Positions 8,945 to 31,650 of a DNA stretch of 64,000 nt are shown piece after piece. This DNA is from Pseudodesulfovibrio sp. S3. Its GTDB lineage: Bacteria; Desulfobacterota; Desulfovibrionia; Desulfovibrionales; Desulfovibrionaceae. The number at the start of each line of letters is the position of its first letter. Position 1 is the stretch's first letter. The DNA lies in the NCBI RefSeq assembly GCF_004025585.1, contig NZ_QTZO01000002.1:248001-312000 (forward strand). The letters run 5' to 3'. Position numbers and translations under genes: made by a program. The notes under the pieces were generated by a model that had not been told where the DNA came from, ran no database searches, and saw only the letters and a program-made list of their open reading frames with translations.

Positions 8945-10447
8945 TTAACGGGTCGGGAGTGAAAAGAAAAACGAGCTACCCTTTCCGGGGATGCTTTCCA
9001 CCCATACCTGACCGTCATGGAGTTCAACGATCTTGCGGCAGATGGAAAGACCGATGCCCAATCCCCTGGGCTTTTCGGTCATCAAATCACCGGCCTGATA
9101 AAATTCGTCAAAGACCTTTCGGGCATTCTCGGGACTCAACCCCGGCCCGGTATCCCTCACCTCCACCACGATCTCGCCGTTACCGGCCTCTGCCCTCACC
9201 AGGATACCGCCGGCACCGGTGAAAACCATGGCGTTGGAAAGGTAGTGCCGCAACACGAGGGCGATCTGGCTTCTGTCGACAAGGACGATCAGCGGTTCAT
9301 CAGGGGTCTCGACCCGCAGGGAAAGCCCCTTGCATTCGATTCCCGCTCGCATCTCATCAGCGATCTGGGTGACAACGGAGCCGACATCCAGCGGCTCCCG
9401 CTCTCCGGCGGCATCCTTTTGGATCAACGAGATCAAGGTGATGATATTGCCGATCATCCCCTCCATGCACTCGCCCTGAGTCGACACGGTCTCCAACGCA
9501 GATTGAACTGCAATCAGAGTTGCCCCGTCCCCATCCGCGGATTCCGAAAGCCCGGATATGGATCCGATTTTTTTCAGGCTGAGCTTTGCAAAACCGATTA
9601 TGGAGGTCAACGGAGTCCGCAATTCATGGGACAAATTGGCTATGAGCGACGTTTTGATCGCATCCATCGTCCTCAATTCGTCAACCGCCTGCTGCAACTT
9701 CTCACGGGACTGCTGGATTCTGTAAGACATGCCCTCGATATCCCGGCTCAAATCGCCGAATTCGTCACCGTCACCCACGGGAATGGAAATTCCCATCTCC
9801 CCCATCGCTATCTGCTCGGTGGCATTCTGGAGCAGATTGACCGGCTTCACGATCAGCTTGTGCAACACGAAACCAATAATCAAAACAAGGACCATACAGG
9901 TTATCGCCCCGATGATGGCAACGGTCAGCCAGATGTGCCGCACTCTGGCGTGGAGAAAATCGCCTTTGATGAGTATGAAGACGCTCCAATTCCAGGGCTC
10001 GAAATAGTGTGCCACGAAGCCCTCGCTGCTCGAGACATGACCGTGAACCGTCTCTGTCGAGTGCTTCATCTTCTCCAGTGTTTCATCCCAGGCTGGAGGC
10101 AAACGATCGGGCATCTCTCCAGTCGTGCACAAGATGATGTCCCTGTTCCCATCGATGATAAACAGATGTCCGGGCCAAATGAGATTGAGTTCAGCGGCAG
10201 CGGCCAACGCCTCCTGCTGGTAGCCAGCCACAAATGAGGGCACGTTATCCAAATAATTGTCCTTGAGCAGTCGGGCCCTGGCTGCCAGATCCTGAGTCAC
10301 ATAGGCGTCGAGGACACCCTGGCTATAGCGAAAAATTGCTTCATGTGTGGCCTCAGTGGCATAGCTGATCACCATCCATCCGGTGAGAAAAAGCGACAGG
10401 ACCACTGCAGGAAGCATGGCGCACGTTATTTTTCGCCGCAACCGCAT
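8945..10447 (-). CDS. Membrane sensor histidine kinase with HAMP domain
   Basis: About 500 residues. A membrane helix at about 9-29, a periplasmic sensor region (30-168), a second helix (173-197) and a HAMP segment (198-250) lead into a HisKA domain with phospho-accepting His274 in ANLSHELRTPL and a HATPase domain with the N-box YLSNAMVFT and the later DTGPGLS and GLGIGLSI boxes. The ATG at 10447 lies one base after the stop of the binding-protein gene, implying translational coupling; an ATG at 10462 overlapping that gene is the alternative. No response regulator is adjacent. Paired with a periplasmic binding protein, it probably senses a ligand through that partner. Confidence 0.87.
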   Translation of the reverse strand: MRLRRKITCAMLPAVVLSLFLTGWMVISYATEATHEAIFRYSQGVLDAYVTQDLAARARLLKDNYLDNVPSFVAGYQQEALAAAAELNLIWPGHLFIIDGNRDIILCTTGEMPDRLPPAWDETLEKMKHSTETVHGHVSSSEGFVAHYFEPWNWSVFILIKGDFLHARVRHIWLTVAIIGAITCMVLVLIIGFVLHKLIVKPVNLLQNATEQIAMGEMGISIPVGDGDEFGDLSRDIEGMSYRIQQSREKLQQAVDELRTMDAIKTSLIANLSHELRTPLTSIIGFAKLSLKKIGSISGLSESADGDGATLIAVQSALETVSTQGECMEGMIGNIITLISLIQKDAAGEREPLDVGSVVTQIADEMRAGIECKGLSLRVETPDEPLIVLVDRSQIALVLRHYLSNAMVFTGAGGILVRAEAGNGEIVVEVRDTGPGLSPENARKVFDEFYQAGDLMTEKPRGLGIGLSICRKIVELHDGQVWVESIPGKGSSFFFSLPTR

Positions 10448-13466: not shown

Positions 13467-14573
13467 ATGAAAAATATTATCCGATGTTTCCTTTTCATAC
13501 TGGCCCTTGGAGCCCCTGCCATGGCACAGACCGGCACCAACAGCATTGTTGACGGTTCCGGGCGCACGGTCTCCGTCCCGCAAGAGGTCGAACATGTCAT
13601 CTGCTCCGGCCCCGGCAGCCTGCGGCTGCTGACCTATCTCCAGGCGCAGTCCATGATCGTGGCCGTAGATGATATCGAGACGCGCAAGATTACCTTTGAC
13701 GCCCGCCCATACGCCCTGGCCAATCCGCAATTCAAATCCCTGCCTATTTTCGGCGAATTTCGCGGGCACGACAATCCCGAGTTGATCCTGACCCTGGAAC
13801 CGCAACCCCAGGTAATCCTGAAGACCTACGGCAAAATGGGTTACAACCCCAAAGAGTTGCAGCAAAAAACAGGCATACCCGTGGTGGAGCTCAATTACGG
13901 AAACCTCGGCGAACAGCGGCCCCAACTCTATCAGTCCCTGCGCATCATGGGCGCAGTCGTGGGCAAGCAACAACGCGCCGAAGAGGTCATCAGCTTCATA
14001 GATGCTCAAATCGCCGACCTCAAGCAACGCACGGCAGACATTCCCGAACAGGAGCGCCCCACCGTGTTCGTAGGCGGCATCGCATCCAAGGGGCCCCACG
14101 GCTTTCAGTCAACTGAACCGGCATACCCGCCCTTTACCTTTGTCAACGCCAGGAACGTTGCCTATGACAAGGGGCTTACGGGCAAGGATCTGCAACATTC
14201 CGACGTAGCCAAGGAAATGATCGTCAAATGGGATCCCAGCATCCTGTTCCTCGACCTGTCCACCCTGCAAATGGGACAGGAAGCGGGCGGATTGCACGAA
14301 TTGAAGACAGACCCCGCGTACCGGATCCTGACCGCCGTCACCAAGGGCCAGGTATACGGTCTGTTGCCGTACAACTGGTATAGCCGGAACTACGGCTCCA
14401 TCCTGGCCAACGCATTCTTCATCGGCAAACAACTGTACCCCGAACGGTTCGAGGACATCGACCCTGCTGTCAAGGCTGACGAGATTTACACCTTCCTCGT
14501 GGGCAAACCCGTCTTCAAGGACATGAACCATCTCTTCCAGGATCTGGCCTACAAGCCCGTTCCGGTGAATTGA
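13467..14573 (+). CDS. ABC transporter periplasmic binding protein, FecB/BtuF-like
   Basis: 368 residues with a signal peptide (cleavage after APAMA or AMAQ). The mature region begins with VDGSGRTVSVPQEVEHVIC, the usual opening of class III metal-chelate binding proteins (PF01497), followed by LRLLTYLQAQSMIVAVDD. It would deliver its ligand to the permease and ATPase encoded directly downstream; the permease ATG begins one base after this stop. Ligands of the family include ferric siderophores, cobalamin, haem, and molybdate/tungstate in the MolA group. The FmdE-like gene at the end of the operon makes molybdate/tungstate an attractive but unproven guess. Confidence 0.88.
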   Translation: MKNIIRCFLFILALGAPAMAQTGTNSIVDGSGRTVSVPQEVEHVICSGPGSLRLLTYLQAQSMIVAVDDIETRKITFDARPYALANPQFKSLPIFGEFRGHDNPELILTLEPQPQVILKTYGKMGYNPKELQQKTGIPVVELNYGNLGEQRPQLYQSLRIMGAVVGKQQRAEEVISFIDAQIADLKQRTADIPEQERPTVFVGGIASKGPHGFQSTEPAYPPFTFVNARNVAYDKGLTGKDLQHSDVAKEMIVKWDPSILFLDLSTLQMGQEAGGLHELKTDPAYRILTAVTKGQVYGLLPYNWYSRNYGSILANAFFIGKQLYPERFEDIDPAVKADEIYTFLVGKPVFKDMNHLFQDLAYKPVPVN

Positions 14574-14574
14574 T

Positions 14575-15645
14575 ATGCATTTCCATGATGGAGAAGTCCC
14601 GGCCGAATACCGGCGGTATATCGGCTGGAAAGTATCCTTGATCATGGTTTTGGCAGGTCTGCTCGCAGTCACCCTGGTGGTCGCCGTCTCCCTGGGAGCG
14701 GCCCGCATTCCGGTAGGCGACGTGGCGGCGAGCCTGTTCGGCGCTGTCGTTTCCAAACGTTCGGACATCATCATCTGGAACATCCGCCTGCCCCAGGCCC
14801 TGGCGGCCATCGTGGCCGGGGCAGGACTGGCCGTGGCCGGAACCACCATGCAGTCGATTCTGCGCAACCCGCTGGGATCGCCGTTCACCCTGGGCATCGC
14901 GCATGCTGCGGCCTTTGGCGCAGCCTTTTCGGTCATGCTGCTGGGCGGCGGCATCATGACTTCCTCCAATACGGGCGCAGTGAGCATCACCAATCCGTAC
15001 CTGACCACGGGCGCGGCCTTTGTCGCCAGCTTGGCCGCCGCCGGGGTGATTGTCGCCGTCTCCCGCCTGCGCGGCGCCACGCCGGAGATCATGGTCCTCA
15101 CAGGCGTGGCCTTGGGTGCCCTGTTCACCGCCGGAACCATGTTCCTCCAATTCTTTGCGGACGACGTCCAATTGGCCGCCATGGTCTTCTGGACCTTCGG
15201 GGACACGGCCCGTGCATCCTGGGCGGAACTGGGCGCCATCACCCTGGTCGTGATCCCTTCCTCCCTCTACTTCATGACCAATAGCTGGAACTACAACGCC
15301 ATAGACGCGGGAGACGAAACGGCAAAGGGCCTGGGGGTACGCGTGGACCGCGTCCGCATGATCGGTATGATGCTGGCCTCACTGGTTACGGCCATGATCA
15401 TCGCCTTCCTGGGCATCATCGGCTTTGTCGGCCTGGTGGTGCCGCACATGGCCCGACGCATTGTCGGTTCGGATCACCGCTTTCTCCTGCCTGCATCCAT
15501 CCTGGGCGGCAGCCTGCTCCTGCTCGTGTCCGACACCGTGGCCCGCCTCATTCTCGCCCCCCACATCCTGCCGGTCTCGGTACTCACGGCGTTCATGGGG
15601 GCGCCGGTTTTCATCTACCTCATCATACGGGGGCAACGCAGATGA
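14575..15645 (+). CDS. FecCD-type ABC transporter permease
   Basis: 356 residues with about nine to ten membrane helices. Family hallmarks are RLPQALAAIVAGAGLAVAGT near the N-terminus and GFVGLVVPHMARRIVGSDHR, the coupling-helix region that contacts the ATPase. It forms the homodimeric channel of a metal-chelate importer. Translationally coupled at both ends: it starts one base after the binding-protein stop, and its stop overlaps the ATPase ATG. Confidence 0.93.
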   Translation: MHFHDGEVPAEYRRYIGWKVSLIMVLAGLLAVTLVVAVSLGAARIPVGDVAASLFGAVVSKRSDIIIWNIRLPQALAAIVAGAGLAVAGTTMQSILRNPLGSPFTLGIAHAAAFGAAFSVMLLGGGIMTSSNTGAVSITNPYLTTGAAFVASLAAAGVIVAVSRLRGATPEIMVLTGVALGALFTAGTMFLQFFADDVQLAAMVFWTFGDTARASWAELGAITLVVIPSSLYFMTNSWNYNAIDAGDETAKGLGVRVDRVRMIGMMLASLVTAMIIAFLGIIGFVGLVVPHMARRIVGSDHRFLLPASILGGSLLLLVSDTVARLILAPHILPVSVLTAFMGAPVFIYLIIRGQRR

Positions 15646-16397
15646 TCCTTTCTGTTTCCGAAATCGATTTCACCTACGGCGGCGCCAGCGTACTTGCAGG
15701 CGTGGATTTCCAATTGGACGGCGGGGAGCTGCTGGCCATACTCGGCCCCAACGGTGTGGGCAAGACCACCCTGCTCAAATGCATCAATGCCATCCACCGC
15801 CCGTCAGCCGGGGCAGTCATGGTCGAAGACCGCAATATCCTGGCCATGCGGCCGGATGAAATCGCCCTGGGCGTCGGCTACGTGGCCCAGCGCAGCGAGA
15901 CGGCACGCCTGACGGTGTTCGATGCCGTGCTCATGGGGCGCAAGCCGCACATCCGTTGGCGGCCACGTGAACAGGATCTCAAGATCGTGGACGCGGCGAT
16001 CAAACGGCTCGACCTTGAGCGTTTGTCCCTCCGATACATCGACTGCCTGAGCGGGGGCGAACTGCAAAAGGTGGCCATAGCCCGCGCCATGGTACAGGAG
16101 CCCAAGCTGATGCTGCTCGACGAGCCCACCAGTTCCCTGGACCTCAAAAGCCAGGTAGACATTCTGACCATGCTCCGTCGCGTGGTGGATGAACACAAGA
16201 TCGGCGCGATCATGACCATGCACGATCTGAACACCGCCCTGCGTTACGCCGACAAGGTCCTCTTCCTCAAGGAAGGGCGCATCCATTCCACCGGACCGGC
16301 CTGCGAGGTCACTTCCGACACCGTCGAGGAGGTCTACGGTCTGCCGGTTCACATCCACACTGTGCAGGGGCATCCCATGATCGTCCCGGCAGGATAA
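15642..16397 (+). CDS. ABC transporter ATPase of metal-chelate importer
   Basis: 251 residues. Walker A GPNGVGKTT, signature LSGGELQKVAIARAM and Walker B LMLLDEPTSSLD with the switch His in MTMHDLN are all present. It energises import through the FecCD permease it overlaps by four bases (ATGA). Transport specificity is not encoded here; see the neighbouring binding protein. Confidence 0.94.
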   Translation: MILSVSEIDFTYGGASVLAGVDFQLDGGELLAILGPNGVGKTTLLKCINAIHRPSAGAVMVEDRNILAMRPDEIALGVGYVAQRSETARLTVFDAVLMGRKPHIRWRPREQDLKIVDAAIKRLDLERLSLRYIDCLSGGELQKVAIARAMVQEPKLMLLDEPTSSLDLKSQVDILTMLRRVVDEHKIGAIMTMHDLNTALRYADKVLFLKEGRIHSTGPACEVTSDTVEEVYGLPVHIHTVQGHPMIVPAG

Positions 16398-16418
16398 CCA
16401 GACACAGGGAGAACATCC

Positions 16419-17030
16419 ATGCCGTGTACTTTTTCCGAAGAAATCATTGAACAGACCATCTCCTTTCACGGCCACAGCTGTCCGGGACTGACCATCGGCA
16501 TACGTGCGGCCGAGCTGGCCATGCGCGAACTGGGAAACCCGAATGAAATTGAAATGGTGGCGGTTTCCGAAACCGACATGTGCGGGGTGGACGCCATCCA
16601 GTTCCTCACCGGATGCACCTACGGAAAGGGCAATTTCCTGCACCGGGATTTCGGAAAGATTGCCTTTTCCTTCTTTGACAGGAAAACGGGCAAGGGTCTG
16701 CGCGCCCTGCTGAACCCCGATATCCGGGCAGGAATGGACACGGAACTGGCCGCCCTCATGGCAAAGCAGGACCAAGGCTCCGCCACCCGGGACGAGCTCG
16801 ATCGCATCGTGGAACTGCGCACCCTGCTCAAGGAGCGTTTCATGGAGTTGGAGTTGGAGGACATGTTCGACGTCACCCAACTCAAGGAAGGGTTGCCGCG
16901 TCCCGCCATGATTCTGGCAAGCCTGACCTGCGATTGCTGCGGCGAGACCGTCATGGAGTCACGCACCCGGCGTTTCAGCGGCAAGACCGTCTGCATCCCC
17001 TGTTTCACCACCATGGAGCAGAAAATCTGA
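16419..17030 (+). CDS. FmdE-family protein with C-terminal zinc-ribbon
   Basis: 203 residues; AGGGAG lies seven bases before the ATG. The N-terminal part has the FmdE (PF02663) signature SFHGHSCPGLTIGIRAAELA and a conserved region with DMCGVDAIQFLTGCTYGKGN. The C-terminus carries a four-Cys ribbon (CDCC...CIPC) likely to bind zinc. FmdE domains are found with formylmethanofuran dehydrogenase and, in non-methanogens, with molybdenum-linked genes. It lies 21 bp after the ABC ATPase, so it is the fourth gene of that operon. Biochemical function is not established. Confidence 0.88.
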   Translation: MPCTFSEEIIEQTISFHGHSCPGLTIGIRAAELAMRELGNPNEIEMVAVSETDMCGVDAIQFLTGCTYGKGNFLHRDFGKIAFSFFDRKTGKGLRALLNPDIRAGMDTELAALMAKQDQGSATRDELDRIVELRTLLKERFMELELEDMFDVTQLKEGLPRPAMILASLTCDCCGETVMESRTRRFSGKTVCIPCFTTMEQKI

Positions 17031-18789: not shown

Positions 18790-20412
18790 TTAGAGAAGGT
18801 AGTTGACCGCAGCCAGGCCCACCAACGACATGGTGATGGTGTAGGGCAGCGCCAACATGACCATACGGCCGTAGGACAGCCGAATGACCGGCGCAAGGGC
18901 CGAGGTCAGCAGGAAGAGGAACGCGGCCTGACCATTGGGAGTGGCGACACTGGGGATGTTGGTACCCGTGTTGATGGCCACGGCCAGCTTGTCCAGGTTC
19001 AACATGACTTCCTGAGCCCGGGCCGCAGCGGCCTGGGGCAGGGTGGCCAGGACATCGGCGCGCGCGACATGGGGGTCGGTCAGCTTGTCCATCAGCGCCT
19101 GCCCGGTCATGCCGATATCCGGAATGGCGCCCAGGACATTGACGAAATGAAGCTTGGTTTCAGATATGTATACCGTTGCCACGAACACGTTGTCCGAGAT
19201 GGCGGAAAGCAGGCCGTTGGCGCAGTAGTATGCGACGAGCTGGGATTGGCCCTTGAGGTGAAGCACGTATTCGATGATGGGGTGGAACAGTCCCTGGTCG
19301 TGGATGACCGCGACAACGGAAAAGAAGACCACCAGAAGCGCCGTGAACGGCAGGGCTTCTTCAAATGCCTTGCCCAGGCGATGCTCTTCGACGATACCGT
19401 TCATGGCTGTCAGCAGAATGATTACGGACAGGCCGATAATACCGACGGCGGCAAGGTGAAAACCGAGGGCCAGGACGAGCCAGATTCCGGTCAGGGCCTG
19501 CACGACCAAACGGATTTTTCCGCTCTGTCCCTGCTTCTCTTCCATCTGAATGGCGGTTTCCAACAGGTGAGACCGGATGTTGCCGGGCATCTGCGCGCCA
19601 TATCCGAACAGATGAAACGCTTCAACGGCAACACAGGTCAGCATACCGGTGAAGAAAACCGGCATGGATACAGGCATGACTTCCAGGAAGAACGGGACGA
19701 AATGCCATCCCATCTCGCCGCCTATGAGCAGGTTCTGAGGCTCGCCTACCAGGGTACACACGCCGCCCAGGGCCGTACCCACGGCACCGTGCATCATGAG
19801 ATTGCGCAGAAACGCGCGGAATTCCCTCAAGTCCTCCCTGCCCTTGTCCTTGACTGGACTGTCGTCGACGAGGTCGTGCGGTCCCTGGAGGGTCTTGCCC
19901 GAGGCGAACCGATGATAGACATTATAGAAGCCAAAGGCCACGGCCATGATCACGGCGGTGACGGTAAGGGCATCCAGAAAGGCGGAAAGAAATGCGCCGG
20001 CAAAGCAGAAAAGCAGGGAAATGAGCATCTTGGAACGGACCCGAACCAGAATGCGCGTGAAGGTGAACTGGAGGAACTCCTTCATGAAGTAGATGCCCGC
20101 AACCATGAAGATCAGCAGCAGAATGACTTCAAAGTTCTTCAGGGCTTCATGATAGACCGTTTCCGGGGAGGTCATCTTCAGGGCGACCGCTTCCAGGGCG
20201 AGCAGACCGCCTGCAGGCAGGGGATAACACTTGAGGGCCATGGCCAGAGTGAAGATGAATTCGGCGATAAGCGCCCACCCTGCCACAAAGGGATCCACAC
20301 CGAACATGAGGAAGGGGTTCAGGATCAGGAAAGAAATGATGGTCAGTTTGTACCAGGTCGGCGCACTGCCGAGAAAATTTTGAAAAAAGGCTTGAAGGGG
20401 TGATGGACGCAT
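18790..20412 (-). CDS. nhaB: Na+/H+ antiporter NhaB
   Basis: 540 residues, hydrophobic throughout with about 12 membrane segments. The start region ([20 protein letters not shown]) and internal [20 protein letters not shown] and [15 protein letters not shown] are characteristic of NhaB. The ATG follows CGGAG at normal spacing. It extrudes sodium in exchange for protons, as expected for a marine or brackish organism, and fits with the glycine-betaine genes at 34.6-38.8 kb. Transcribed alone leftward. Confidence 0.92.
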
Positions 20413-20764: not shown

Positions 20765-22561
20765 CTAATAGAAGAGCATCAAGGCTGTTATCATGACCAC
20801 CATATACAGGACGGTCATGCCTGCACCGGCCCTGACGTAGTCGATGGTCTTGTATCCGCCGGGACGCATTATCAATGCATTGACCTGATGGGTCGGCAAC
20901 ACGAAGGTATTCGAAGCCGCCAGGGCAACCGTCAGGGCGGCAATACGCGGATCGACCCCCGCATTGATGGCCATGTTCATGGACAGCGGCACCAACAGCA
21001 CCGTTGCGCCGACATTGGATGCGACCAGGGTGAAGAACGAGGTCAGGATACCGATGACGGTCAACAGGATCACGGGCGTGGGAGCCCCGAGCGCGGCCAT
21101 GATGGTGTCGGCGATATACTTGGCTGCACCTGTGTTTTCAAAGGCCATGCCCAACGGGATAAGGCCGCCAAGGAGGAAGACTGTCATCCAGTCCACCGAC
21201 TGGTACGCCTCGTCGATGGTCAGGACCTTCGTCAGGATCATGCCCAAGGCGCCTGCCAGCAGGGCAATGGAGAGCTGGACATGGAAACCGAGGATCATGA
21301 CCAGGGAAACCGCCAGCCACATCAGGGCGATCTTGGCCTTCTCCGTACGGAGGATCTCGCCCTTCACATCCTCGGTGAAGACCAGCTCGTGGCCCTCCTT
21401 CAGCATGTGGAACATTTCCCAGCGGCCATGCAGCAGAATGGCGTCACCGGACTCGATCTTGAAACTGTACAGGCCGCTGACGAACAGCTTGTCGCCGCGG
21501 AAGATGGCAAGGGGGGAAACCTTGAACCTCTCGCGCAAACGGATGTCCGCCAGGGTTTCGCCCACCAACTCGGAACGGGGCGTCACCAATCCTTCCATGA
21601 CTCCCGCATTGTTGGGTGAAAGCTCTTCGGCGAAAGAGGCCAGCTCGGGTTGCAGTTCCCAGCCCAGGTTCTCTGCCATGTGCTCAACCATTTCCCGGGG
21701 ACCGAACAAGACCAGATGATCTCCCGCCTGGATATTCTCCGTGGCGTCAGGGGCAAACACCTGTGTTCCATCCTCGCGGGCTATGGCAACGATTGTCGAG
21801 AAGTACAGGGGGCGCAATTCAAGGGCCATGATCTCCGTGTCGTTGCTCCAGCTCTGCGGCACATGCAGCTCATGCAGCGAACCGATGCCCTGATAGGTTC
21901 CGGCAAGGGCGGAAGACATGGGACCGGCGATTTCATCCACGCCCTTGGAGGGCAGGATGAAGCGACCGAAAAAGATGAAATATCCAAGAGCCGCCGCGAT
22001 CAGCAGCAGGCCTACAGGCGTCACGCTGAACAACCCGAAGGTGTCATAGTGCTTGCCGCCGACGACCATCAGGTCGTTGAGAAGAATCAGCGGACTGGAA
22101 CCGACAAGGGTAAGGCAACCGCCGATGATTGCGCAAAAGCCCATGGGCATGAGCAGACGCCCGATGGGCACCCCTGTCTGGTTGCCGATACGTTTGGCTG
22201 CAGGAAGAAACAGTGCAGCTGCGCCGATGTTCTGCATGAACCCGGAGATGACCGCCACGGTACCCGCGATCAAGGTCATGATGCGCGTTTCGCTTTTTCC
22301 TGCAAACCGCAGAATAACCCTGGCCATCGAATTCATGACGCCGGTCTTGTCCAGGCCGGCGCCGATGATGATGACTGCTATGATGGAAACGACCGCGTTG
22401 CTGCTCAAACCGCTGATGGCCTGTTTTGGTGTTACCAGCCCGAGCAGGGGCAGCAACACCATCATTATGATGCCGACGACATCCACCCGAACCCATTCGA
22501 ATATAAAAAGCAGCACGGCAAAGCCGAGTACTGCCATGACCATAATAATCTCTGGAGTCAT
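20765..22561 (-). CDS. SLC13-family permease with two RCK_C (TrkA-C) domains
   Basis: 598 residues. About eleven membrane segments of the DASS/SLC13 type are split by a soluble insert (about residues 210-390) with two TrkA-C-like domains (LELRPLYFSTIVAIAREDGT and RFKVSPLAIFRGDKLFVSG). The signature NVGATVLLVPLSMNMAINAG is near the C-terminus. Such transporters carry sulfate, dicarboxylates or other anions with sodium; in sulfate reducers sulfate is a reasonable guess. AAGGTAG precedes the ATG. It forms an operon with the USP-like gene 52 bp upstream, behind a possible sigma-54 promoter. Confidence 0.9.
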   Translation of the reverse strand: MTPEIIMVMAVLGFAVLLFIFEWVRVDVVGIIMMVLLPLLGLVTPKQAISGLSSNAVVSIIAVIIIGAGLDKTGVMNSMARVILRFAGKSETRIMTLIAGTVAVISGFMQNIGAAALFLPAAKRIGNQTGVPIGRLLMPMGFCAIIGGCLTLVGSSPLILLNDLMVVGGKHYDTFGLFSVTPVGLLLIAAALGYFIFFGRFILPSKGVDEIAGPMSSALAGTYQGIGSLHELHVPQSWSNDTEIMALELRPLYFSTIVAIAREDGTQVFAPDATENIQAGDHLVLFGPREMVEHMAENLGWELQPELASFAEELSPNNAGVMEGLVTPRSELVGETLADIRLRERFKVSPLAIFRGDKLFVSGLYSFKIESGDAILLHGRWEMFHMLKEGHELVFTEDVKGEILRTEKAKIALMWLAVSLVMILGFHVQLSIALLAGALGMILTKVLTIDEAYQSVDWMTVFLLGGLIPLGMAFENTGAAKYIADTIMAALGAPTPVILLTVIGILTSFFTLVASNVGATVLLVPLSMNMAINAGVDPRIAALTVALAASNTFVLPTHQVNALIMRPGGYKTIDYVRAGAGMTVLYMVVMITALMLFY

Positions 22562-22613: not shown

Positions 22614-23225
22614 TTATTTCACTCGCAACATGGCCCGTGTGTACACAGGAATGATCTGCTTGCGTGAGGTCTGACTGACCACGTCATCCATGACGTATCG
22701 GAAAGCCTCGTCCTCGCTGTACAAACGCGCAACGACGGAAACTTCCGCACCCTGTTCGACGACATGGGCAAATTGCAATCCCGCGTCTGCCGCCTTGCAG
22801 GCGAAGGTGGCAACATTCTTTTCAGACTCCATGCGGAAGCTGCTGAAATTGTCGCCCTGTTCATCCAGGTTGAGTGCCACGATGCCACTCTTGGTCTTGG
22901 AAGCCATATCAACAGCATATTCCATGACATCTTCGGAAAAAGTGCACCCTTTGCAAAGAATGAGTATCTTGCATTCACTACGAGTACATGCTGTGGTTGC
23001 CATGGCTGTTTTTACGGATTCGGGACGAACGTTCTCTTTCAATTCCGTCGCCCAGATTCTTTTGATTAACTTCTTCAAGAAGAGCCCCCTTTCATTTCTC
23101 GTCGCATATAGATGTTGTTCGCGGTTGATAGCCCAGGTGCCGACACTGCACGTGTTGCACTGAGCCTTTGCCGTTGCCGCATAATGCCTGCCGAAAAACC
23201 CCTTAACAGTCTGCGTCGCTGTCAT
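22614..23225 (-). CDS. Universal-stress-like protein with extended N-terminus
   Basis: 203 residues from ATG 23225 (AGGAG six bases upstream). Residues 85-200 resemble a UspA fold: KILILCKGCTFSEDVMEYAV, GIVALNLDEQ and alternating strands and helices to the end. The first 80 residues are basic and Cys-containing (QCNTCSVGT) and I do not recognise them. The ATP-binding G-X2-G-X9-G motif of classical UspA is not evident. The gene precedes the SLC13 permease with a 52-bp gap; USP domains are often paired with such permeases as regulators. Confidence 0.65.
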   Translation of the reverse strand: MTATQTVKGFFGRHYAATAKAQCNTCSVGTWAINREQHLYATRNERGLFLKKLIKRIWATELKENVRPESVKTAMATTACTRSECKILILCKGCTFSEDVMEYAVDMASKTKSGIVALNLDEQGDNFSSFRMESEKNVATFACKAADAGLQFAHVVEQGAEVSVVARLYSEDEAFRYVMDDVVSQTSRKQIIPVYTRAMLRVK

Positions 23226-23290: not shown

Positions 23291-23362
23291 GTCTTTTTTT
23301 GAAAGATAACATGTTTATATTATTATATTTTTAAGATAGCCACTGTTGCCAAACCCGACAAA

Positions 23363-23458
23363 CCGTTGCCGATAGCAACACCGTGGAGACAGGCAAACAG
23401 CAACACCCCCTGGAAATGCCGGTTGCCAGCGCATACGAAACTGTTGCGATTTGCAGCA
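23363..23458. promoter_or_regulatory. Two NtrC-type enhancer-like sites
   Basis: CGTTGC-N5-GCAACA (GTTGC 23365-23369, GCAAC 23375-23379) and TGTTGC-N5-GCAGCA (23442-23458) share one pattern, TGTTGC-N5-GCAACA. Extra half-sites lie at 23344-23349 and 23397-23436. They sit 75-180 bp upstream of the sigma-54-like promoter, the usual distance for an enhancer-binding protein. The remaining part of the 23226-23816 gap shows no gene. Confidence 0.45.
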
Positions 23459-23816
23459 CAAGAACGCAGGCCGCCAATTTGGATGAGGAGCAAATGCCCT
23501 ATTTTCGGACAAGAATGCCCGAACAGGAAAAATCTTACATTTACTTTTTCAATAAAACTCTGTGAATACAGACCATTACAGAATCACTTGTGTGATTTAT
23601 CACAAAATCAGCCGAATCCACCTCCGCTGCACTGCAGACAAACCGGGTGTGTTACACATTGCAATGTTAACAGCCTATTTGAATCATGGTATTTGGTAAC
23701 AGCGCCTTGAGCATGGGGTTCAGCCGGTACCGGCTTGTCCGGTGCGACATTGATGTAGCTCTTGCCGCGAGTCCTCGCACACAACGCCTTCCTCAAATTT
23801 GCCGGAGATTGCAGCG

Positions 23817-25865
23817 ATGAAGTGGTTTCAACGGAAGAGTGGTGATGGAACGCCTGGAGATGTCCAACCTCCCGTCGAACCTGAAAAAAAGATGGAACAG
23901 GTTGACTCCGTAGTGGATTCGTTCCGTAAACGCGTGGAGTCTGCCGGGCTGCCCGGACCGATTCTCGTTGCAGCCCGTGATGAATACGAACGGCTCGCCA
24001 AGGTAGACAAGTCTTCCCCGGAATATGCCATAGGGTACAACTATCTCGAATTCATCCTGTCCTTGCCCTGGAACGTCACCACAAAGGACGATCTTGATCT
24101 CGATCGGGCCGAGACGATTCTCGACGCCCGACACCATGGCCTGGGCCAGGTCAAGGAACGCATCCTGGAATTCCTGGCGGTGAAGAACCTGCACGGCCGC
24201 CATGAGACTAAAATACTGCTGGCCGACGACGAGCTCATTGCCAGGGAAAACCTTTCATTGGTCTTCGAACGTGAGGGCTTCACCGTGACCGCCGTGGCCA
24301 ACGGCCTGGAGGCCGTGGCCGCCATGGAACGCGACCCTGCGGACGTCGTGGTGACGGACCTGAAGATGGAGTGCATGGACGGCCTGGAACTCCTGGAAGC
24401 GCTCCGCCGCCGCTGGCCCGACACCGGCGTCATCATGCTCACGGGCTATGCCACCGTGAAGACGGCCGTCACCGCCATGCGCAAGGGCGCGGACCAATAC
24501 CTGAGCAAGCCGGTCAACCTGACCAAGCTTCGCGATTACGTCTATGACCTGTTGCAGAAGAACCACCGGGCCCAGCACCTGCGCGGTCCCGTCCTGTGCT
24601 TCACCGGGCCTCCCGGCACGGGCAAGACGTCCATAGGCCAGGCCATTGCCGAGGCCATGGGCCGCAAGTTCTTCCGCCTTTCCCTGGCGGGCTTGCGCGA
24701 CGAGGCAGAGCTTCGCGGCCACCGGCGCACGTATGTCGGGGCCATGGCCGGCAGGATTCTGCAGGGAATCCAGAAGGTCGGGGTACGAAATCCCGTGATC
24801 ATGCTCGATGAGATGGACAAGATCATTCAGGATTTTCAGGGCGACGCCACATCGGTGCTCCTCGAACTTCTCGACCCGGAGCAGAACACCGCTTTCGCCG
24901 ACCATTATCTCGGGCTTCCCTTCGACCTTTCCGGCGTCATGTTCATCGCCACGGCCAACGTCGTTGAGCGGTTGCCCGCCCCCCTTCGGGATCGCATGGA
25001 AGAAATCGAATTCTCAAGCTACACGATCAAGGAAAAACAGGAAATCGCCACCCGCTTCCTGATTCCGAAGCAGCTCTACCAGCATGGATTGAAGGAAAAC
25101 TCGATCCGCGTTCTCCCGGACGCGGTCAGGCGCCTGATCCTGGATTATACGCGCGAATCCGGCCTGCGGGGGCTGGAAAAGCAGATCGCCTCCCTATGCC
25201 GCAAACTGGCGCGGCAGACCCTGGCCCACGGCGAGACCTCCGATATCCGTGAAGTGAACGGCGACGACATCCCGGAGATCATGGGGGCGACACCCCACTT
25301 CACGACCGTGGCCCGGTCCACGGCCAAGGTCGGATTGGCAACGGGACTGGTCTGGACAGAGGTCGGGGGAGACATCATCTTTGTCGAGACGGCCCGGATG
25401 CGCGGCAACAAACAGCTCATCCTTACCGGCTCCCTGGGCGAAGTCCTGCGGGAGTCGGCGCAAACAGCCCTGAGCTACATCCGCAGCCACGCCGAACAAT
25501 TCGGCATTTCACCGGACTTCTTCGAATCCTCGGACATCCATGTCCACATCCCTGCAGGTGCCGTGACCAAGGAAGGCCCCTCGGCCGGACTGACCATAGC
25601 CATAGCCCTCCTGTCACTGCTGACGGAGCGCCCCGTGCGCCAGGACATGGCCTTCACAGGAGAACTCTCCCTTCTGGGCGAGGTGCTGCCCGTGGGAGGC
25701 ATACGGGAAAAGATCATGGCGGCGGCCCGGGCGGGCATTCGGACGGTCGTGCTGCCGGAAAAATGCGAACGGGCCGTGCATTCCCTTGAGGAGGACGTGC
25801 TTGAAGGCCTGGATATCCGTCTGGTCCACGGACTGGACGACGCGGTGGATCTGGCGCTGTTGTAG
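23817..25865 (+). CDS. Lon-type AAA+ serine protease with inserted response-regulator receiver domain
   Basis: 682 residues from ATG 23817 (GGAG nine bases upstream). Order: short hydrophilic N-terminus; Lon helical segment (about 65-125, NYLEFILSLPWN ... GLGQVKERILEFLAVK); a complete receiver domain (131-250) with acidic pair Asp137/Asp138, phospho-acceptor Asp181, Thr209 and Lys231; then AAA+ with Walker A GPPGTGKT (264-271) and Walker B MLDE; sensor region; and a Lon proteolytic domain with catalytic Ser589 in GPSAG and Lys632. The usual roughly 200-residue N-terminal substrate-binding domain of LonA is missing. All key catalytic and phosphorylation residues are present, so it should be an active ATP-dependent protease switched by phosphorylation. 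The kinase/regulator pair at 25872-28624 is convergent and adjacent. Confidence 0.93.
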   Translation: MKWFQRKSGDGTPGDVQPPVEPEKKMEQVDSVVDSFRKRVESAGLPGPILVAARDEYERLAKVDKSSPEYAIGYNYLEFILSLPWNVTTKDDLDLDRAETILDARHHGLGQVKERILEFLAVKNLHGRHETKILLADDELIARENLSLVFEREGFTVTAVANGLEAVAAMERDPADVVVTDLKMECMDGLELLEALRRRWPDTGVIMLTGYATVKTAVTAMRKGADQYLSKPVNLTKLRDYVYDLLQKNHRAQHLRGPVLCFTGPPGTGKTSIGQAIAEAMGRKFFRLSLAGLRDEAELRGHRRTYVGAMAGRILQGIQKVGVRNPVIMLDEMDKIIQDFQGDATSVLLELLDPEQNTAFADHYLGLPFDLSGVMFIATANVVERLPAPLRDRMEEIEFSSYTIKEKQEIATRFLIPKQLYQHGLKENSIRVLPDAVRRLILDYTRESGLRGLEKQIASLCRKLARQTLAHGETSDIREVNGDDIPEIMGATPHFTTVARSTAKVGLATGLVWTEVGGDIIFVETARMRGNKQLILTGSLGEVLRESAQTALSYIRSHAEQFGISPDFFESSDIHVHIPAGAVTKEGPSAGLTIAIALLSLLTERPVRQDMAFTGELSLLGEVLPVGGIREKIMAAARAGIRTVVLPEKCERAVHSLEEDVLEGLDIRLVHGLDDAVDLALL

Positions 25866-25871
25866 CCGTTC

Positions 25872-27206
25872 CTATTCCATGCTGTGGCGCTTGAGCTTGC
25901 GCCAGAGCGAAACCCTGTCGATCCCGAGGATGATGGCGGCCTGCGTCTTGTTGCCGCCGGTAGCCCGCAATACTTTTTCAATATGACGCCGCTCCACCTC
26001 TTCCAGGGTTTGCAACGGCTTTTCCCGGGGGGCCATCCGAACCTCGTCGGGCAGCAGATCCGGGGTGAAGACACTCCCCCTGGCCAGGGCCAATGCGCGT
26101 TGAACGATGTTCTCCAACTCGCGGACATTGCCTGGGAAATAGTAATTCATGAGGATGTCCAGCGCTTCCTGAGAGATCGACGCCAGCGCATGATCCGAAG
26201 TCCGGTGCTTTTCCAGAAAGTGACCGACAAGGACCGGAATGTCTTCCCGGTGCTCGCGCAGCGGCGGGGCCGACAGGGTGACGACATTGAGCCGATAGAA
26301 CAGGTCCTGCCGGAATGTCCCGTTTGCCACGTTCTGTCTCAGGTCGCAGTTGGCAGCGGCGATGACCCGTATGTCCACGGGGATTTCCTGTGTCCCGCCG
26401 ACCCGCAAAAAGGTCCTTTCCTGCAACACGCGGAGCAGCTTGACCTGCATGTTCAACGGCAGTTCGCTGATTTCATCAAAGAAGACGGTCCCGCCGTCAG
26501 CGACCTCCAGGATTCCCTTCTGCCCGCGTTGCGCCCCGGTGAATGCTTCGCGCTCATGGCCGAACAGTTCCTTGTCCATGAGTTCCGCCGTGAACGTGCC
26601 GCAGTTGATCGCCATGAAGCGCTCTTCGGACCGGGAACTGAGCACGTGCACGCCCTGGGCGATCAGCTCCTTTCCGGTGCCCGTCTCACCCTGAATGAGC
26701 ACGTTGCAGCTCATGCCGGCGAGCTGCCTGACGGTTTTCTTGAGCCCCACAAGGGCGTCGCTCTGCCCGACCAGGGGAAAATCCTGCTTGCCCTTGGCGA
26801 GAACCTGCCTGAGGCGGAGCACTTCGACGGACAGGGCACGCTGCTCCAGGGCCTTGCGGACCTGCATCCTGAGCTCATCGAGATTGAAAGGCTTGGCAAC
26901 GTAGGAGTGCGCCCCCTTCTGCATGGCCTGGACCGCTGTCTGCACCGAAGCGTACCCCGTGATGACGATGACCTGGACCGGCGGCCGCATCTCCTTGGCT
27001 CTTTCCAGAACCTGGAGGCCGTCGATACCCGGCATCATCAGGTCGGTCAGGATGAGGTCATAATCCTGCTTCTCGAGCTCCTGCAAGGCCTTGTCGCCCG
27101 AGCTCACGGCCGTGACCGCATACCCTTCCTTGGACAGGATGTGGATGAGGTTGTCACGAGCGATGGCCTCGTCGTCGACCACCAGTATTTTGGCCTGGGT
27201 CAGCAT
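25872..27206 (-). CDS. Sigma-54-dependent response regulator, NtrC family
   Basis: 444 residues in three domains: receiver (1-125; acidic pocket Asp11/Asp12, phospho-acceptor Asp55, Lys105), AAA+ sigma-54 activator (about 145-380; Walker A GETGTGKE at 173-180), and C-terminal Fis-type helix-turn-helix (QAAIILGIDRVSLWRKLKRH). The sigma-54 contact loop, normally GAFTGA, reads EAFTGA (220-225). The gene overlaps the end of the kinase gene by seven bases, so the two are translated together. The stop is 6 bp from the stop of the receiver-Lon gene. Likely target: the sigma-54-like promoter at 23275-23290. Confidence 0.94.
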   Translation of the reverse strand: MLTQAKILVVDDEAIARDNLIHILSKEGYAVTAVSSGDKALQELEKQDYDLILTDLMMPGIDGLQVLERAKEMRPPVQVIVITGYASVQTAVQAMQKGAHSYVAKPFNLDELRMQVRKALEQRALSVEVLRLRQVLAKGKQDFPLVGQSDALVGLKKTVRQLAGMSCNVLIQGETGTGKELIAQGVHVLSSRSEERFMAINCGTFTAELMDKELFGHEREAFTGAQRGQKGILEVADGGTVFFDEISELPLNMQVKLLRVLQERTFLRVGGTQEIPVDIRVIAAANCDLRQNVANGTFRQDLFYRLNVVTLSAPPLREHREDIPVLVGHFLEKHRTSDHALASISQEALDILMNYYFPGNVRELENIVQRALALARGSVFTPDLLPDEVRMAPREKPLQTLEEVERRHIEKVLRATGGNKTQAAIILGIDRVSLWRKLKRHSME

Positions 27207-28624
27207 GTGGCGGCATCCTTTGCAAGGGGCAGGCGGATGAAAAACGTTGTCCCCTTGCCCGGGGAGCTTTCGACGCGGATGCTCCCCTGATGCTTTTCTA
27301 TGATGCCGTAGACGATGTAGAGACCGAGTCCGGTCCCCTGCCCCACTTCCTTTGTCGAGAAAAACGGATCGAACACGCGATCAAGGATATCCTTGCTGAT
27401 GCCGGTTCCCGTATCCATGACTGTGATCAGGGCGTGATCGCCTTCCCTGGCTGCGCCGATTGAAATGGCTCCTTCCTTCTGCTCCATGGCCTGGACGGCA
27501 TTGATGATGAGATTGATGAAGGCCTCCTGCATCCGCTGATGGTCGACCTGGAGCTGAATGTCGCCGGGGATATCCGTGGTCACGGAAATGCCCGAAGGGA
27601 CATGACTCGAGACGAGGCGCACGGCGGACTGCACGATGTGATCAAGCGGAAACGGCGCAGGGGAATATTCCCGTTCCCTGGAAAATTCCAGAAGCCCCTT
27701 GACGATGTCCCTGGCTCTCAGGGTTTCCTGCTTGATATTCTGCATCATCCTGTTCGCCAGTTCGTCCCTTGGCGCATCGTCCTCCATGAGGATTTGGCAG
27801 GAGGTGGAAATATTATTCAGGGGGTTGTTCAACTGGTGGGCGATGCCTGAGGCGAGCGTGCCTATGGAGGAAAGCTTCTGGGCCTGGACAAGCTGCTTCT
27901 GACGCTTGGCCAACTGCTCGACCATGGAATTCAGGGCAACAAAGACCTGCTGCACCTCGTCGTGCGCATTCTTGACGGGCAACGGCACAAAGGTACCGAG
28001 GGTGATGCGTTTGGTGGCGGCCTGCACCCGCCGCAGGGGATGGAGGATGCTTGACGAGACAAAGATCACCAGCATGAATATGACAGCGGCGATGGTGATC
28101 ATGGACAGGACCAGCGTTGTTCGAAGCTTGTGGTTGATGGACAGGATGCTTGCCCTTTCAAACCGGGCAATGGCCCGCGAGTTTTCGACAAGCCGCTGCC
28201 CGGCCTCGCGAAGCGCACCCACCACCGCTTCCTGTTCGCTGCCGCCGACACCTGCCTTCTCGTTCCGAAGGATCGTCTCAAGCAACAAGCGATACTGTTT
28301 CAAATCCCCTTCGAGCGCTATCCCGCGCTGCTTGACCACGTCCTGTCGGAACTCGGAACTGAGTGAATACAAGAGGGCATCGGCATCATCGATATTCTTC
28401 ATACCCTTGCTGAAGATCGTCTTGTCGCCGTAGAGAAAGAAGTTCTTTTCGCTCCGCCGGGTTTCAAGGATGAGATTGCTGAGATCGTCAGCACGTTCGA
28501 CGACGAGAACATCCCGCTCCAGTTGTACGGTATTCGAGTAGGAAAGCAGGGCGATACAGCCGAAGCAGAGGGTGAAGATGGCGATGCCGAAGACGATTTT
28601 CTGCCTGATATTGAATTTGAGCAT
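27200..28624 (-). CDS. Sensor histidine kinase, partner of NtrC-type regulator
   Basis: 474 residues from ATG 28624; a TTG at 28720 would add 32 residues and a better-looking membrane start is absent there. Membrane helix 10-28, a helical periplasmic sensor (30-170, with ETRRSEKNFFLYGD typical of helical chemoreceptor-like sensors), helix 171-192, HAMP, then HisKA with phospho-accepting His263 in SGIAHQLNNPLNN, and HATPase with NLIINAVQAM, DTGTGIS and GTGLGL boxes. The HQLNNPL type of H-box is the one that partners NtrC-family regulators. The ribosome site before the ATG is poor. The gene is co-translated with the regulator. The signal is unknown. Confidence 0.9.
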   Translation of the reverse strand: MLKFNIRQKIVFGIAIFTLCFGCIALLSYSNTVQLERDVLVVERADDLSNLILETRRSEKNFFLYGDKTIFSKGMKNIDDADALLYSLSSEFRQDVVKQRGIALEGDLKQYRLLLETILRNEKAGVGGSEQEAVVGALREAGQRLVENSRAIARFERASILSINHKLRTTLVLSMITIAAVIFMLVIFVSSSILHPLRRVQAATKRITLGTFVPLPVKNAHDEVQQVFVALNSMVEQLAKRQKQLVQAQKLSSIGTLASGIAHQLNNPLNNISTSCQILMEDDAPRDELANRMMQNIKQETLRARDIVKGLLEFSREREYSPAPFPLDHIVQSAVRLVSSHVPSGISVTTDIPGDIQLQVDHQRMQEAFINLIINAVQAMEQKEGAISIGAAREGDHALITVMDTGTGISKDILDRVFDPFFSTKEVGQGTGLGLYIVYGIIEKHQGSIRVESSPGKGTTFFIRLPLAKDAATC

Positions 28625-28832
28625 AGGTGGTGTCCAGTGTTTCGGGGAGGCATCAAGACCCCCGTACAAATCGTCAACATCGAAATCAAGTCGGCCACAG
28701 GCTATGCCTTGCTCTCCCAAAAGGCAACCGAAGGGGCGGCACAGCCGAAAAAACCCTGCTCGGAATCCTCACCCGCACGCGGATCAGGGAGGTGAAGCCC
28801 GGGGGAGGCGCGGGATGCGTTAAGAGCCGAAG

Positions 28833-29459
28833 CTAGTCGGCCCGGCCCTCGACGCTCTTTTCCAGCTTTTCAGCGTGATGGTTGTATATCCGCCGCAAAG
28901 CCTCAAACGTCTCTATGGAGTAGTGGAAGGCAAAGGCCGCACAGAAGTATGTGACCAAATCCCTGTCAGCCAGCAGAGAGCCCAAGTACAAAAGGAAAAA
29001 GATGTATTTCGAACGAATGAACTTCCTGAGTTCGATCCCAAGGGAGTTCGCATAAACGGCAAGACCGATAATAATCAGATAGGAACTTGCGTATATGACC
29101 ATTACCGGACCCCAGGCGCCCAGATGGTAAATTGCCGCAGCAGACAAAAAGACCACGCCAAGTTGGTCCGAGACGATGTCTATCAGGGAACCTCCGGGGT
29201 GCGCAGTTCCCATCCGCCGTGCAAGCGGGCCGTCAATGCCGTCGCAGAACACGTACAGCGCCATGAGGGATGTGGCCATGACCGCTTGGGATTTCGGCAG
29301 CAAACACGTGAGCATCAGGCAGACAACGCCTGCGATTGAAACCTGGTTCGGGGTTGCCTTCACAGCCATCAGCAGACGGACGATCGGAAAGAATACATAA
29401 TCGCGTTTGGCAGCGAAGGCTTTCTGCCTGTCACGTTCCTCGTCATTGAAATAATCCAT
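28833..29459 (-). CDS. CDP-alcohol phosphatidyltransferase family membrane enzyme
   Basis: 208 residues from ATG 29459 (GGAG six bases upstream). The catalytic motif DG-X2-AR-X8-G-X3-D-X3-D is complete (about residues 72-98, beginning DGPLARR and ending IDIVSD). Roughly six membrane helices surround it. Such enzymes transfer a CMP-linked phospho-alcohol group onto a second alcohol, as in phosphatidylglycerol phosphate, phosphatidylinositol phosphate or related lipid synthesis. The N-terminal cytoplasmic segment is short and charged. It follows a PHP-type phosphoesterase gene by 11 bp, so the two probably act on one lipid or sugar phosphate. The acceptor is unknown. Confidence 0.87.
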   Translation of the reverse strand: MDYFNDEERDRQKAFAAKRDYVFFPIVRLLMAVKATPNQVSIAGVVCLMLTCLLPKSQAVMATSLMALYVFCDGIDGPLARRMGTAHPGGSLIDIVSDQLGVVFLSAAAIYHLGAWGPVMVIYASSYLIIIGLAVYANSLGIELRKFIRSKYIFFLLYLGSLLADRDLVTYFCAAFAFHYSIETFEALRRIYNHHAEKLEKSVEGRAD

Positions 29460-29470
29460 CTTCAACTCCG

Positions 29471-30355
29471 CTATGAATTGGGGAGCAATCCATAATAGGC
29501 ACAAATGGCGACCACGGACTTGGTTCTTCCCAGTGTCTTAAGGTACTTCTTGATCAAACCTTCCTTGATCACACCTTGCAAACTTCTCAATAATTTCGTG
29601 TTGTTTCGCATCTTGCTATCGGAAAGATCAAGAACCGGATACGAATCGAAGCGGATGCGTTTTTTCAGGAAATCAAAGGTGTCATCCCCGTCCTCGGGGA
29701 ACAGGTCCGTCACGCCGACAACATACTGCTCCCCAGGATAATGGGCGTCACTGCTCACGGCCCAACCGAGGCCTTCCCCACGGTCCTCTATGGGCAGATT
29801 CAGGGTCTTGTCCAATTTCGCCTGGGTGTTCTTGAAAAGATTCCTGACCTTACTCCCGGACAGGCGTTTGTCCGCGGTCAAGGCCGAGCCGTTATGGATT
29901 TCAATATAGTCACACATCTCCAACAGACGCTGATAAGCCCTTCCGGACAAAATGGTCCCGGCCGAAGATTTCCCTATATGAAACGGATGTGGAACGATCA
30001 CGATTGATTCGGTGTCTTCGGCAATCCTGGCCACGTCGCGAACAGACCACCGGAAAGTTTGGACCTGTTTGAGCCCCTGCTTGAGTTGGTCTTCGGAACG
30101 GTAGAGAAAAATGATATCCACGCCCTCGGATGAGACCGCCTCAACACCCGGGATTATCTCCGTTTTCAGCCCGGAAGACGCATCGGCCAGACGCTGGTAT
30201 GCCTCCAGGGGCTTCTTGTAGGAATGCTCTGTCGATGCCACGTAATCGATTTCGGAATGCTTCATATACCACCGGATCTTCTGCAACCGGAGGAATTTAT
30301 TCCTCCTCGGCATCCGGTGGATATTGGCATGAAAATGCAAATCAAATGTTGGCAT
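29471..30355 (-). CDS. PHP-superfamily metal-dependent phosphoesterase
   Basis: 294 residues. The PHP metal-site motifs appear in order: DLHFHAN (5-11), STEHS (about 41-45), PGVE (about 69-72), VPHPFH (about 121-126) and SSDAHYPG (about 207-214). It should be a soluble enzyme that hydrolyses a phosphate ester with two or three bound metals. It lies just upstream of the CDP-alcohol phosphotransferase gene in the same operon. No Shine-Dalgarno sequence is visible before the ATG; the upstream bases are AT-rich with two TATAAT hexamers. Confidence 0.82.
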   Translation of the reverse strand: MPTFDLHFHANIHRMPRRNKFLRLQKIRWYMKHSEIDYVASTEHSYKKPLEAYQRLADASSGLKTEIIPGVEAVSSEGVDIIFLYRSEDQLKQGLKQVQTFRWSVRDVARIAEDTESIVIVPHPFHIGKSSAGTILSGRAYQRLLEMCDYIEIHNGSALTADKRLSGSKVRNLFKNTQAKLDKTLNLPIEDRGEGLGWAVSSDAHYPGEQYVVGVTDLFPEDGDDTFDFLKKRIRFDSYPVLDLSDSKMRNNTKLLRSLQGVIKEGLIKKYLKTLGRTKSVVAICAYYGLLPNS

Positions 30356-30681: not shown

Positions 30682-31650
30682 CTACTTCTGCAGGGCAATG
30701 CTCCACTGCCTGAATATACCGGGATATTCCAGGATGCTGGAATCTCCGTAAAACGGCAGGCTGTAGACATCCCCATTCCTGAAGGCAGGGATGTCCGCCA
30801 GGGCCGGGTTCCTTATCATGGCGTCGTGAAGGGCCTTTTGAACGGCAAACCCGTTTCCGGTGGCAACGATAATATCGGGATTTACCTTTGCGAGGCCCGC
30901 GAGCCGGCTTGCCGAGACATGCCCCTTGGACACTTTCATGCTGTCGGTCAGCATCTCCCCGGCCACATTGGTGCATCCCAAAGGCGTGAGGATATACTGA
31001 TCGGTATACCCGCCGGGGGCCTCTATGCGGATGAACGTCTTGCCGGTGGCGACCGAATAGTTTCCGTTGAGAATCACCACGCGGCGCCCGTATCCGGCTT
31101 TCGGCAATTGGGCTTCGACCTTTTTCATCGCAGTTTCATAGTCGGCACGGACCTCACGCCCCTGCTCTTCCTTCCCGAGAAGCCTGGCGACCTCCTCGAT
31201 ACCCGCCCCCACGCCGTGGGTAAAATCCGCGTATTCGATGACCACGCCCGGGACATCCTTGACAAGATCCGCCACATTCACAGGATTCACATCTTTCATG
31301 TACAAGCAGAACTTGTTGCTTTTTTCAAGGATAAGGCGCGTTATGCCGCGCTCCTTCATGAACGAAGAGATGGTGTCCGGATTTTTTTTGGTCACGTAAT
31401 TGGGGCAACCCAACACCTGACTGGACAGGGGCAATCCCTGGGCTTTGTCTGGCCACATGGAAAGGCGTACGGACATACCTTCGGGAATGATTCCCAGCTT
31501 GAGGGATACGTCCACCAAGCGATCACCGACCATGACGGCCTTGATCCGTTCCGGGGCCCTGAGGGGCGTGGCGCTGGCCACCGAAAATGCCATGAGCAGC
31601 GCCATGCAGGACAGGCACGCAGTTATCATCAGTATGCGTATTTTTTTCAT
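30682..31650 (-). CDS. Periplasmic metal-chelate binding protein
   Basis: 322 residues with a signal peptide (hydrophobic core 6-24, cleavage near SVASA). The mature part has the features of a class III (FecB/BtuF-like) binding protein: RIKAVMVGDRLVDVSLKLGI, then VPGVVIEYADF, a long linking helix, and a C-terminal lobe with NPDIIVATGNG and FRNGDVYSLPFYGDSS. No permease or ATPase lies nearby. It sits 17 bp downstream of an outer-membrane protein gene, both behind a Fur-box palindrome, so an iron or iron-chelate ligand is likely. Confidence 0.78.
   Translation of the reverse strand: MKKIRILMITACLSCMALLMAFSVASATPLRAPERIKAVMVGDRLVDVSLKLGIIPEGMSVRLSMWPDKAQGLPLSSQVLGCPNYVTKKNPDTISSFMKERGITRLILEKSNKFCLYMKDVNPVNVADLVKDVPGVVIEYADFTHGVGAGIEEVARLLGKEEQGREVRADYETAMKKVEAQLPKAGYGRRVVILNGNYSVATGKTFIRIEAPGGYTDQYILTPLGCTNVAGEMLTDSMKVSKGHVSASRLAGLAKVNPDIIVATGNGFAVQKALHDAMIRNPALADIPAFRNGDVYSLPFYGDSSILEYPGIFRQWSIALQK

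Follow-up and report, generated by a model that had tools for sequence, protein, structure and literature searches.

The 64,000-nucleotide stretch of Pseudodesulfovibrio sp. S3 DNA analysed here (the window) encodes a LonA-type protease with a response-regulator receiver (REC) embedded ahead of its AAA+ motor, and this REC-Lon occurs together with a sensor kinase and a sigma54 regulator, as in the DVU3303-type three-component system. The gene and its parts are as follows.

23817..25865, plus strand: REC-Lon gene, 682 aa, a LonA-type protease with an embedded receiver
23817..23837, plus strand: hydrophobic-basic N-terminal tag MKWFQRK
23913..24200, plus strand: Lon three-helix segment, residues 33-128
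24207..24572, plus strand: embedded REC, residues 131-252, with acceptor Asp181 and Lys231
24582..25232, plus strand: AAA+ core and lid, residues 256-472 (Pfam)
25254..25859, plus strand: Lon protease domain, residues 480-681, with Ser589 and Lys632 (Pfam and alignment)

A sequence-only reading of this DNA had claimed that a receiver lies between the Lon helical segment and the AAA+ core, and this was confirmed both by Pfam (Response_reg, 99.5 bits against a cut-off of 30.2) and by a structure model. The protein runs from the three-helix segment through a complete REC to the AAA+ core, lid, and Ser-Lys protease; apart from the REC these elements are common to LonA proteins (S16), and the NCBIfam model TIGR00763 exceeds its cut-off. 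Two things set REC-Lon apart from LonA, namely the receiver inserted ahead of the AAA+ core and the missing N-terminal substrate-binding domain, which has no Pfam match in REC-Lon and for which the residues before 33 leave no room, in agreement with the same reading. Sigma54_activat was not found in REC-Lon, Pfam giving the Lon AAA+ and Lon_C instead. In the predicted structure, a monomer without phosphate, the REC is gripped between two helices at the motor base rather than held on a flexible arm, and its last helix (residues 235-255) ends three residues ahead of the first AAA+ strand (residue 259).

The catalytic and receiver residues, also read earlier as intact, proved to be so across the family. 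In a 101-row alignment of REC-Lons, D137, D181, T/S209, and K231 are kept in 101 rows and D138 in 99, the Walker A/B residues K270, D331, and E332 are kept in 101 of 101, and the protease dyad of S589 and K632 is present in all 100 rows that reach it. An annotation or frame artefact was rejected given that the REC-Lon frame is open and the domain order identical across this alignment, and the view of the REC as a relic was rejected on the retention of its acceptor site. The alignment omits L052 (genome G007), where REC-Lon is split into two frames (residues 1-432 and 438-681) with kinase and regulator intact alongside, although the first piece, which carries the REC, is included among the 102 Lon-RECs discussed below; the frame break is either a sequencing error or a recent loss.

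In place of the LonA substrate domain, REC-Lons carry a short conserved tag. The pattern M-x(0,2)-[WFLI]-[FW]-x(0,3)-[KR], composed after the sequences had been seen, opens 98 of 100 REC-Lons (L199 was excluded, being at a contig end), and residues 8-32 are variable; the two exceptions read 'KLFKK' (cut by a contig end) and 'VKRIFKK' (GTG start). Of the 651 other ORFs with 250 aa or more at these loci, spurious ones included, 10 begin with the same pattern. FtsY provides an example of a short membrane-targeting N-terminus, and by analogy the REC-Lon tag resembles such sequences; it could equally be a pore-binding plug, a candidate role as plausible as membrane targeting.

On either side of REC-Lon lie genes that recur at related loci:

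18790..20412, minus strand: NhaB Na+/H+ antiporter (Pfam)
20765..22561, minus strand: CitMHS/TrkA_C transporter (Pfam), in the same direction as the 203-aa gene
22614..23225, minus strand: conserved 203-aa protein with a CNTC motif, divergent from lon
25872..27206, minus strand: NtrC-type sigma54 regulator (REC, sigma54 AAA+, and Fis-type HTH), convergent with lon
27200..28720, minus strand: HAMP-HisKA-HATPase sensor kinase (longest ORF)

The regulator gene lies six bases downstream of lon. Homologues of the kinase align from residue 33-34, so its true start is probably near 28624. The CNTC motif of the 203-aa family is invariant in 10 aligned rows, and the second half of the protein is Usp-like by eye only; its best Pfam matches (E 0.11 and 0.21) are under the cut-offs, and its profile has no PDB match at E <= 1. 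Among 69 loci with REC-Lon, a 203-aa-like gene is nearby in 32 (some of these matches weak), the CitMHS/TrkA_C transporter in 33, and NhaB in 17.

The same trio is found in Desulfovibrio vulgaris Hildenborough, where, in PMC3333781 (2011), DVU3303/3304/3305 are presented as a "three-component system" made up of a Lon-containing response regulator, a kinase, and a sigma54 regulator, and phosphorylation-dependent protease activity is already proposed for DVU3303. That paper also reports regulator orthologues in other genomes, mostly with a Lon-type partner, and names Thioalkalivibrio and Dechloromonas. In D. vulgaris the operons targeted by the regulator are its own and a neighbouring one that encodes Usp-type proteins together with a putative anion transporter, and PMC4641369 gives the same targets. 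According to PMC10102598 (2023), pairwise cofitness among the three genes is above 0.9, and lon, kinase, and regulator are detrimental in chlorate (their mutants gain fitness), yet the target transporter DVU3299 is needed. This mismatch in sign would fit if Lon, and not the transporter, were the executor, or if there were polarity, which could also yield the cofitness if the three genes form one operon. Because of its domain content and gene context we regard the window REC-Lon as a putative ortholog of DVU3303. Two differences are that lon of the window converges on the kinase/regulator pair and that NhaB belongs to the divergent cluster.

The sequence-only reading had proposed a phosphorylation-switched Lon of a little-described design, in which the receiver could gate either the assembly of the hexamer or the access of substrates. 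Architecture, sites, linkage to kinase and regulator, and the D. vulgaris cofitness all fit the switch, but the design is not new in kind, PMC3333781 having put forward the same hypothesis for DVU3303. A search of the open-access literature found no biochemical study of a DVU3303-type three-component system, and the switch mechanism of this Lon appears not yet to have been described experimentally. Relative to the DVU3303 papers, what is added here is the distribution of REC-Lon, the linkage counts, the single Lon clade, the kinship of the RECs, the tag, and the palindromes; the earlier reading had likewise not included the conserved tag, the palindromes ahead of lon, or the divergent genes for transporters.

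A survey for the receiver-AAA+-Lon order, which that reading had suggested, recovered the REC-Lon system in samples of two phyla. Full-length REC-Lon was present in 28 of 60 relatives (own genome included, one copy split into two frames), 42 of 345 genomes of the window's phylum (own included), and 29 of 245 genomes of a Nitrospirota sample; partial matches in G064, G207, and G377 from the former phylum sample and G669 from the latter were not counted as full. Within the Nitrospirota sample, G637 has a partial second match (open frame of 382 aa) beside a full-length copy, the coordinates being C153:14931-15527 and C11:7463-8038. No full-length REC-Lon was found among 369 genomes of the gammaproteobacterial class to which Arenimonas belongs, where ten matches span the REC only, a sample size that leaves room for rare carriers in that class. 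A search of 15 further genomes, run without a positive control, gave no match. Named carriers are a Desulfovibrionales MAG, Desulfocurvus sp., a delta proteobacterium MAG, and Desulfobacter vibrioformis. In a contig scan covering at least 80 loci, only L053-L056 among the matches listed align to nearly the whole query as one segment; L054 and L221 represent one genome entered twice. Spread on plasmids was considered and rejected: 62 plasmid records match at E <= 1e-60, all below 60% identity, and the best 10 of the 62 comprise eight that align from residue 225 or 234 onwards (the Lon core) and two chromosome-sized Neisseria records with 92% coverage and 38% identity.

Linkage to the sigma54 regulator (at least 44% identity and 90% coverage, within flanks of about 8-9 kb, many contigs being shorter) was detected at 61 of the 69 loci from the window's phylum and at 21 of the 29 from the Nitrospirota sample, as well as at 3 of the 4 named ones. 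The order of the two genes differs among loci, being convergent, on the same strand with overlapping genes, or several kb apart. Presence of REC-Lon and of a regulator with at least 70% identity agrees in 35 of 36 genomes of the genus when one broken copy is counted (Fisher 4e-9, ignoring kinship). The exception, G001, of the same genus, keeps kinase, regulator, and NhaB (L308, 6880-12087), and no REC-Lon, transporter, or 203-aa gene was seen at that locus. In G008 the contig may end near the place of REC-Lon (CitM is at position 161), so that its absence there may be a gap.

Upstream of lon we detected conserved palindromes, which in the window comprise four sites:

23344..23360, no strand assigned: weaker site TGTTGCCAAACCCGACA, 2 mismatches to TGTTGC-N5-GCAACA
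23364..23380, no strand assigned: palindromic site CGTTGCCGATAGCAACA, a putative regulator binding site
23442..23458, no strand assigned: palindromic site TGTTGCGATTTGCAGCA, 78 bp from the CGTTGCCGATAGCAACA site, these two being the best in the window
23650..23666, no strand assigned: weak site TGTTACACATTGCAATG, 3 mismatches

Exact inverted repeats emerged upstream of lon in the form GTTGC-N5-GCAAC (30 of 95 regions) and TTGCA-N3-TGCAA (25 of 95), compared to 0 and 0.2 in shuffles. With up to 3 mismatches, TGTTGCA-N3-TGCAACA occurs in 78 of 96 lon upstream regions, at a density of 3.6 per kb versus 0.06 over the remaining locus sequence and 0.03 after shuffling. The lon promoters that served to derive the motif are also those in which it is counted, and the independent evidence consists of its emergence against shuffles, its spacing, and loci without Lon. 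Adjacent sites lie within 75-95 bp of each other in 48 of 94 cases. The spacings peak at 75-80 and again at 86-89 bp, a difference of roughly one helical turn, and a minor cluster falls around 206-214 bp; related genomes inflate both the palindrome and the spacing counts. Three regulator loci without REC-Lon, which lay outside the motif derivation, have 4, 1, and 3 sites (L308, L310, and L311, respectively), an indication that the motif goes with the regulator and not with Lon; in L308 three palindromic sites are at 9014, 9091, and 9290. The palindrome is also found upstream of the divergent 203-aa gene (27 of 32 regions, largely the same DNA as the lon upstream), the kinase (15 of 87), and the transporter (1 of 33). 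Judging from these sequence patterns, the palindromes would be binding sites of the sigma54 regulator. Counted loosely, the motif has at least 145 places in the own genome and its reversed control at least 76, figures from which no regulon can be delimited. No convincing sigma54 -24/-12 promoter was found in the regions scanned: matches occurred in 53 of 96 lon upstream regions versus 36.4 expected from mononucleotide shuffles, the window match being poor, and in 40 of 87 kinase regions (36.9 expected) and 5 of 33 transporter regions (10.8 expected).

To place the two halves of REC-Lon we reconstructed separate phylogenies. In the AAA+/protease tree, a quick tree without bootstrap, a single branch (SH-aLRT 99) separates the 30 REC-Lons from the rest, and this clade joins (SH-aLRT 98) two full-length LonAs, from Geobacter argillaceus and a Desulfuromonadaceae MAG; 38 other LonAs, both own-genome LonAs among them, stand apart from this grouping. 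Against 73 other RECs of the genome, the embedded REC is most similar to that of the adjacent regulator (47%, 105 bits), the next scoring 76 bits. In the REC tree (125 rows, 124 columns) the RECs of Lon and of its partner regulators share a group with SH-aLRT 94, a split that is not starred, and seven other RECs sit inside this joint group. The Lon-RECs need two changes on the free tree, one of them (L214) on the partner side, and AU tests reject neither Lon-REC monophyly (0.88) nor Lon plus partner monophyly (0.91), which is weaker than showing either. Of the control RECs, 75 of 91 have proline at the acceptor Asp+4 position, a figure that falls to 29 of 85 for partner RECs and to 2 of 101 for the Lon rows; among the 102 Lon-RECs, E (49) and D (28) prevail there.

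We give an even chance to the reading that the window locus is a DVU3303-type member in which one kinase acts both on lon transcription, by way of the regulator, and on the activity of Lon, by way of Asp181 in the REC, with phosphorylation activating the protease and gating it through the ring. The kinase would signal two outputs with related receivers. The regulator would bind the paired TGTTGCA-N3-TGCAACA sites and raise transcription of lon and, in the window, of the divergent 203-aa, transporter, and NhaB genes. The signal would reach Lon at Asp181, where phosphorylation would alter the alpha4-beta5-alpha5 face of the REC; given that the last REC helix ends just before the first AAA+ strand, this change would switch ring assembly or ATPase activity, and the activated REC-Lon may then destroy a limited set of targets. 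In NtrC-type AAA+ activators the REC switches ring assembly or ATPase activity. Such activators likewise have the REC directly ahead of the AAA+ motor, and the embedded REC is nearest to a regulator of this type; they differ from REC-Lon in having a sigma54 AAA+ and HTH rather than a Lon-type AAA+ and protease, and in lacking the three Lon helices that precede the REC. Because of the helix-to-strand connection and this NtrC-like order, control of the motor would be likelier than a passive adaptor role.

The two-output reading is supported by the architecture, the intact sites, linkage, co-inheritance, REC similarity, and the conserved palindromes, and we infer regulator binding of the palindromes, phosphotransfer to Lon, an activating rather than inhibiting sign, and gating through the ring. 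Counted against it are the lack of a convincing -24/-12 promoter, the small share of kinase upstream regions with a palindrome, the seven other RECs within the joint group, possible polarity behind the cofitness, and chlorate mutant signs in PMC10102598 that are wrong for simple transporter activation.

Two-component control of proteolysis usually acts via a separate adaptor. RssB and CpdR, for example, route such signals to an AAA+ protease by recruiting substrates to ClpXP in a phosphorylation-dependent manner, whereas in REC-Lon the switch sits within the protease itself. The REC could be a built-in adaptor that recruits substrates depending on phosphorylation and replaces the lost LonA substrate domain, a possible if rather unlikely alternative: only the short tag occupies the place of that domain, and NCBIfam models for CpdR and RssB hit the REC, below their cut-offs and as two of many, but the modelled REC is fixed at the motor base, and its nearest relative among the RECs of the genome is NtrC-type. 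Both of the latter points are compatible with an adaptor role. That REC-Lon is instead a negative-feedback arm, ending the response by degradation of the partner regulator or of some other pathway component, we consider improbable; tight linkage and shared input would suit it, as would palindromes placing lon under the regulator, but a protease mutant should then oppose a regulator mutant, and the D. vulgaris pairs in PMC10102598 all have high cofitness, polarity aside.

The sequence does not fix the sign of gating, and phosphorylation might turn REC-Lon off, so that the kinase protects targets of an active unphosphorylated form. This is quite improbable, since kinase and lon mutants should then differ, against the cofitness published in PMC10102598 (polarity again aside). 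It is harder still to credit an ordinary spare Lon whose receiver has lost importance: the own genome does have four more Lon_C loci, two of them strong LonA-like matches, but the acceptor Asp and Lys are kept in every alignment row across samples of two phyla.

Beyond the two-output reading, we tentatively offer a wider scenario that we think unlikely to hold as a whole, in which REC-Lon arose once, by grafting of an NtrC-type receiver of the partner lineage before the AAA+ motor of a LonA without a substrate domain. In this protease an NtrC-style switch would drive assembly or firing of the ring, the input would be the one that also reaches the sister regulator, and the FF-K tag, coupled to the switch, would serve as a tethered plug of the pore or as a membrane anchor. 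If the same receiver lineage drives a sigma54 activator and a Lon side by side, the pair would offer a direct test of the portability of REC control over AAA+ rings.

Elsewhere in the window, a 294-aa ORF (29471-30355, minus strand) is PHP-phosphoesterase-like by eye, has no Pfam match at E <= 1, and overlaps a CDP-alcohol phosphatidyltransferase gene at 28833-29504. By ORF reading only, an FmdE-like gene comes after an iron/cobalamin-type ABC uptake set in 13467-17030, and 30682-31650 holds a second similar binding protein.
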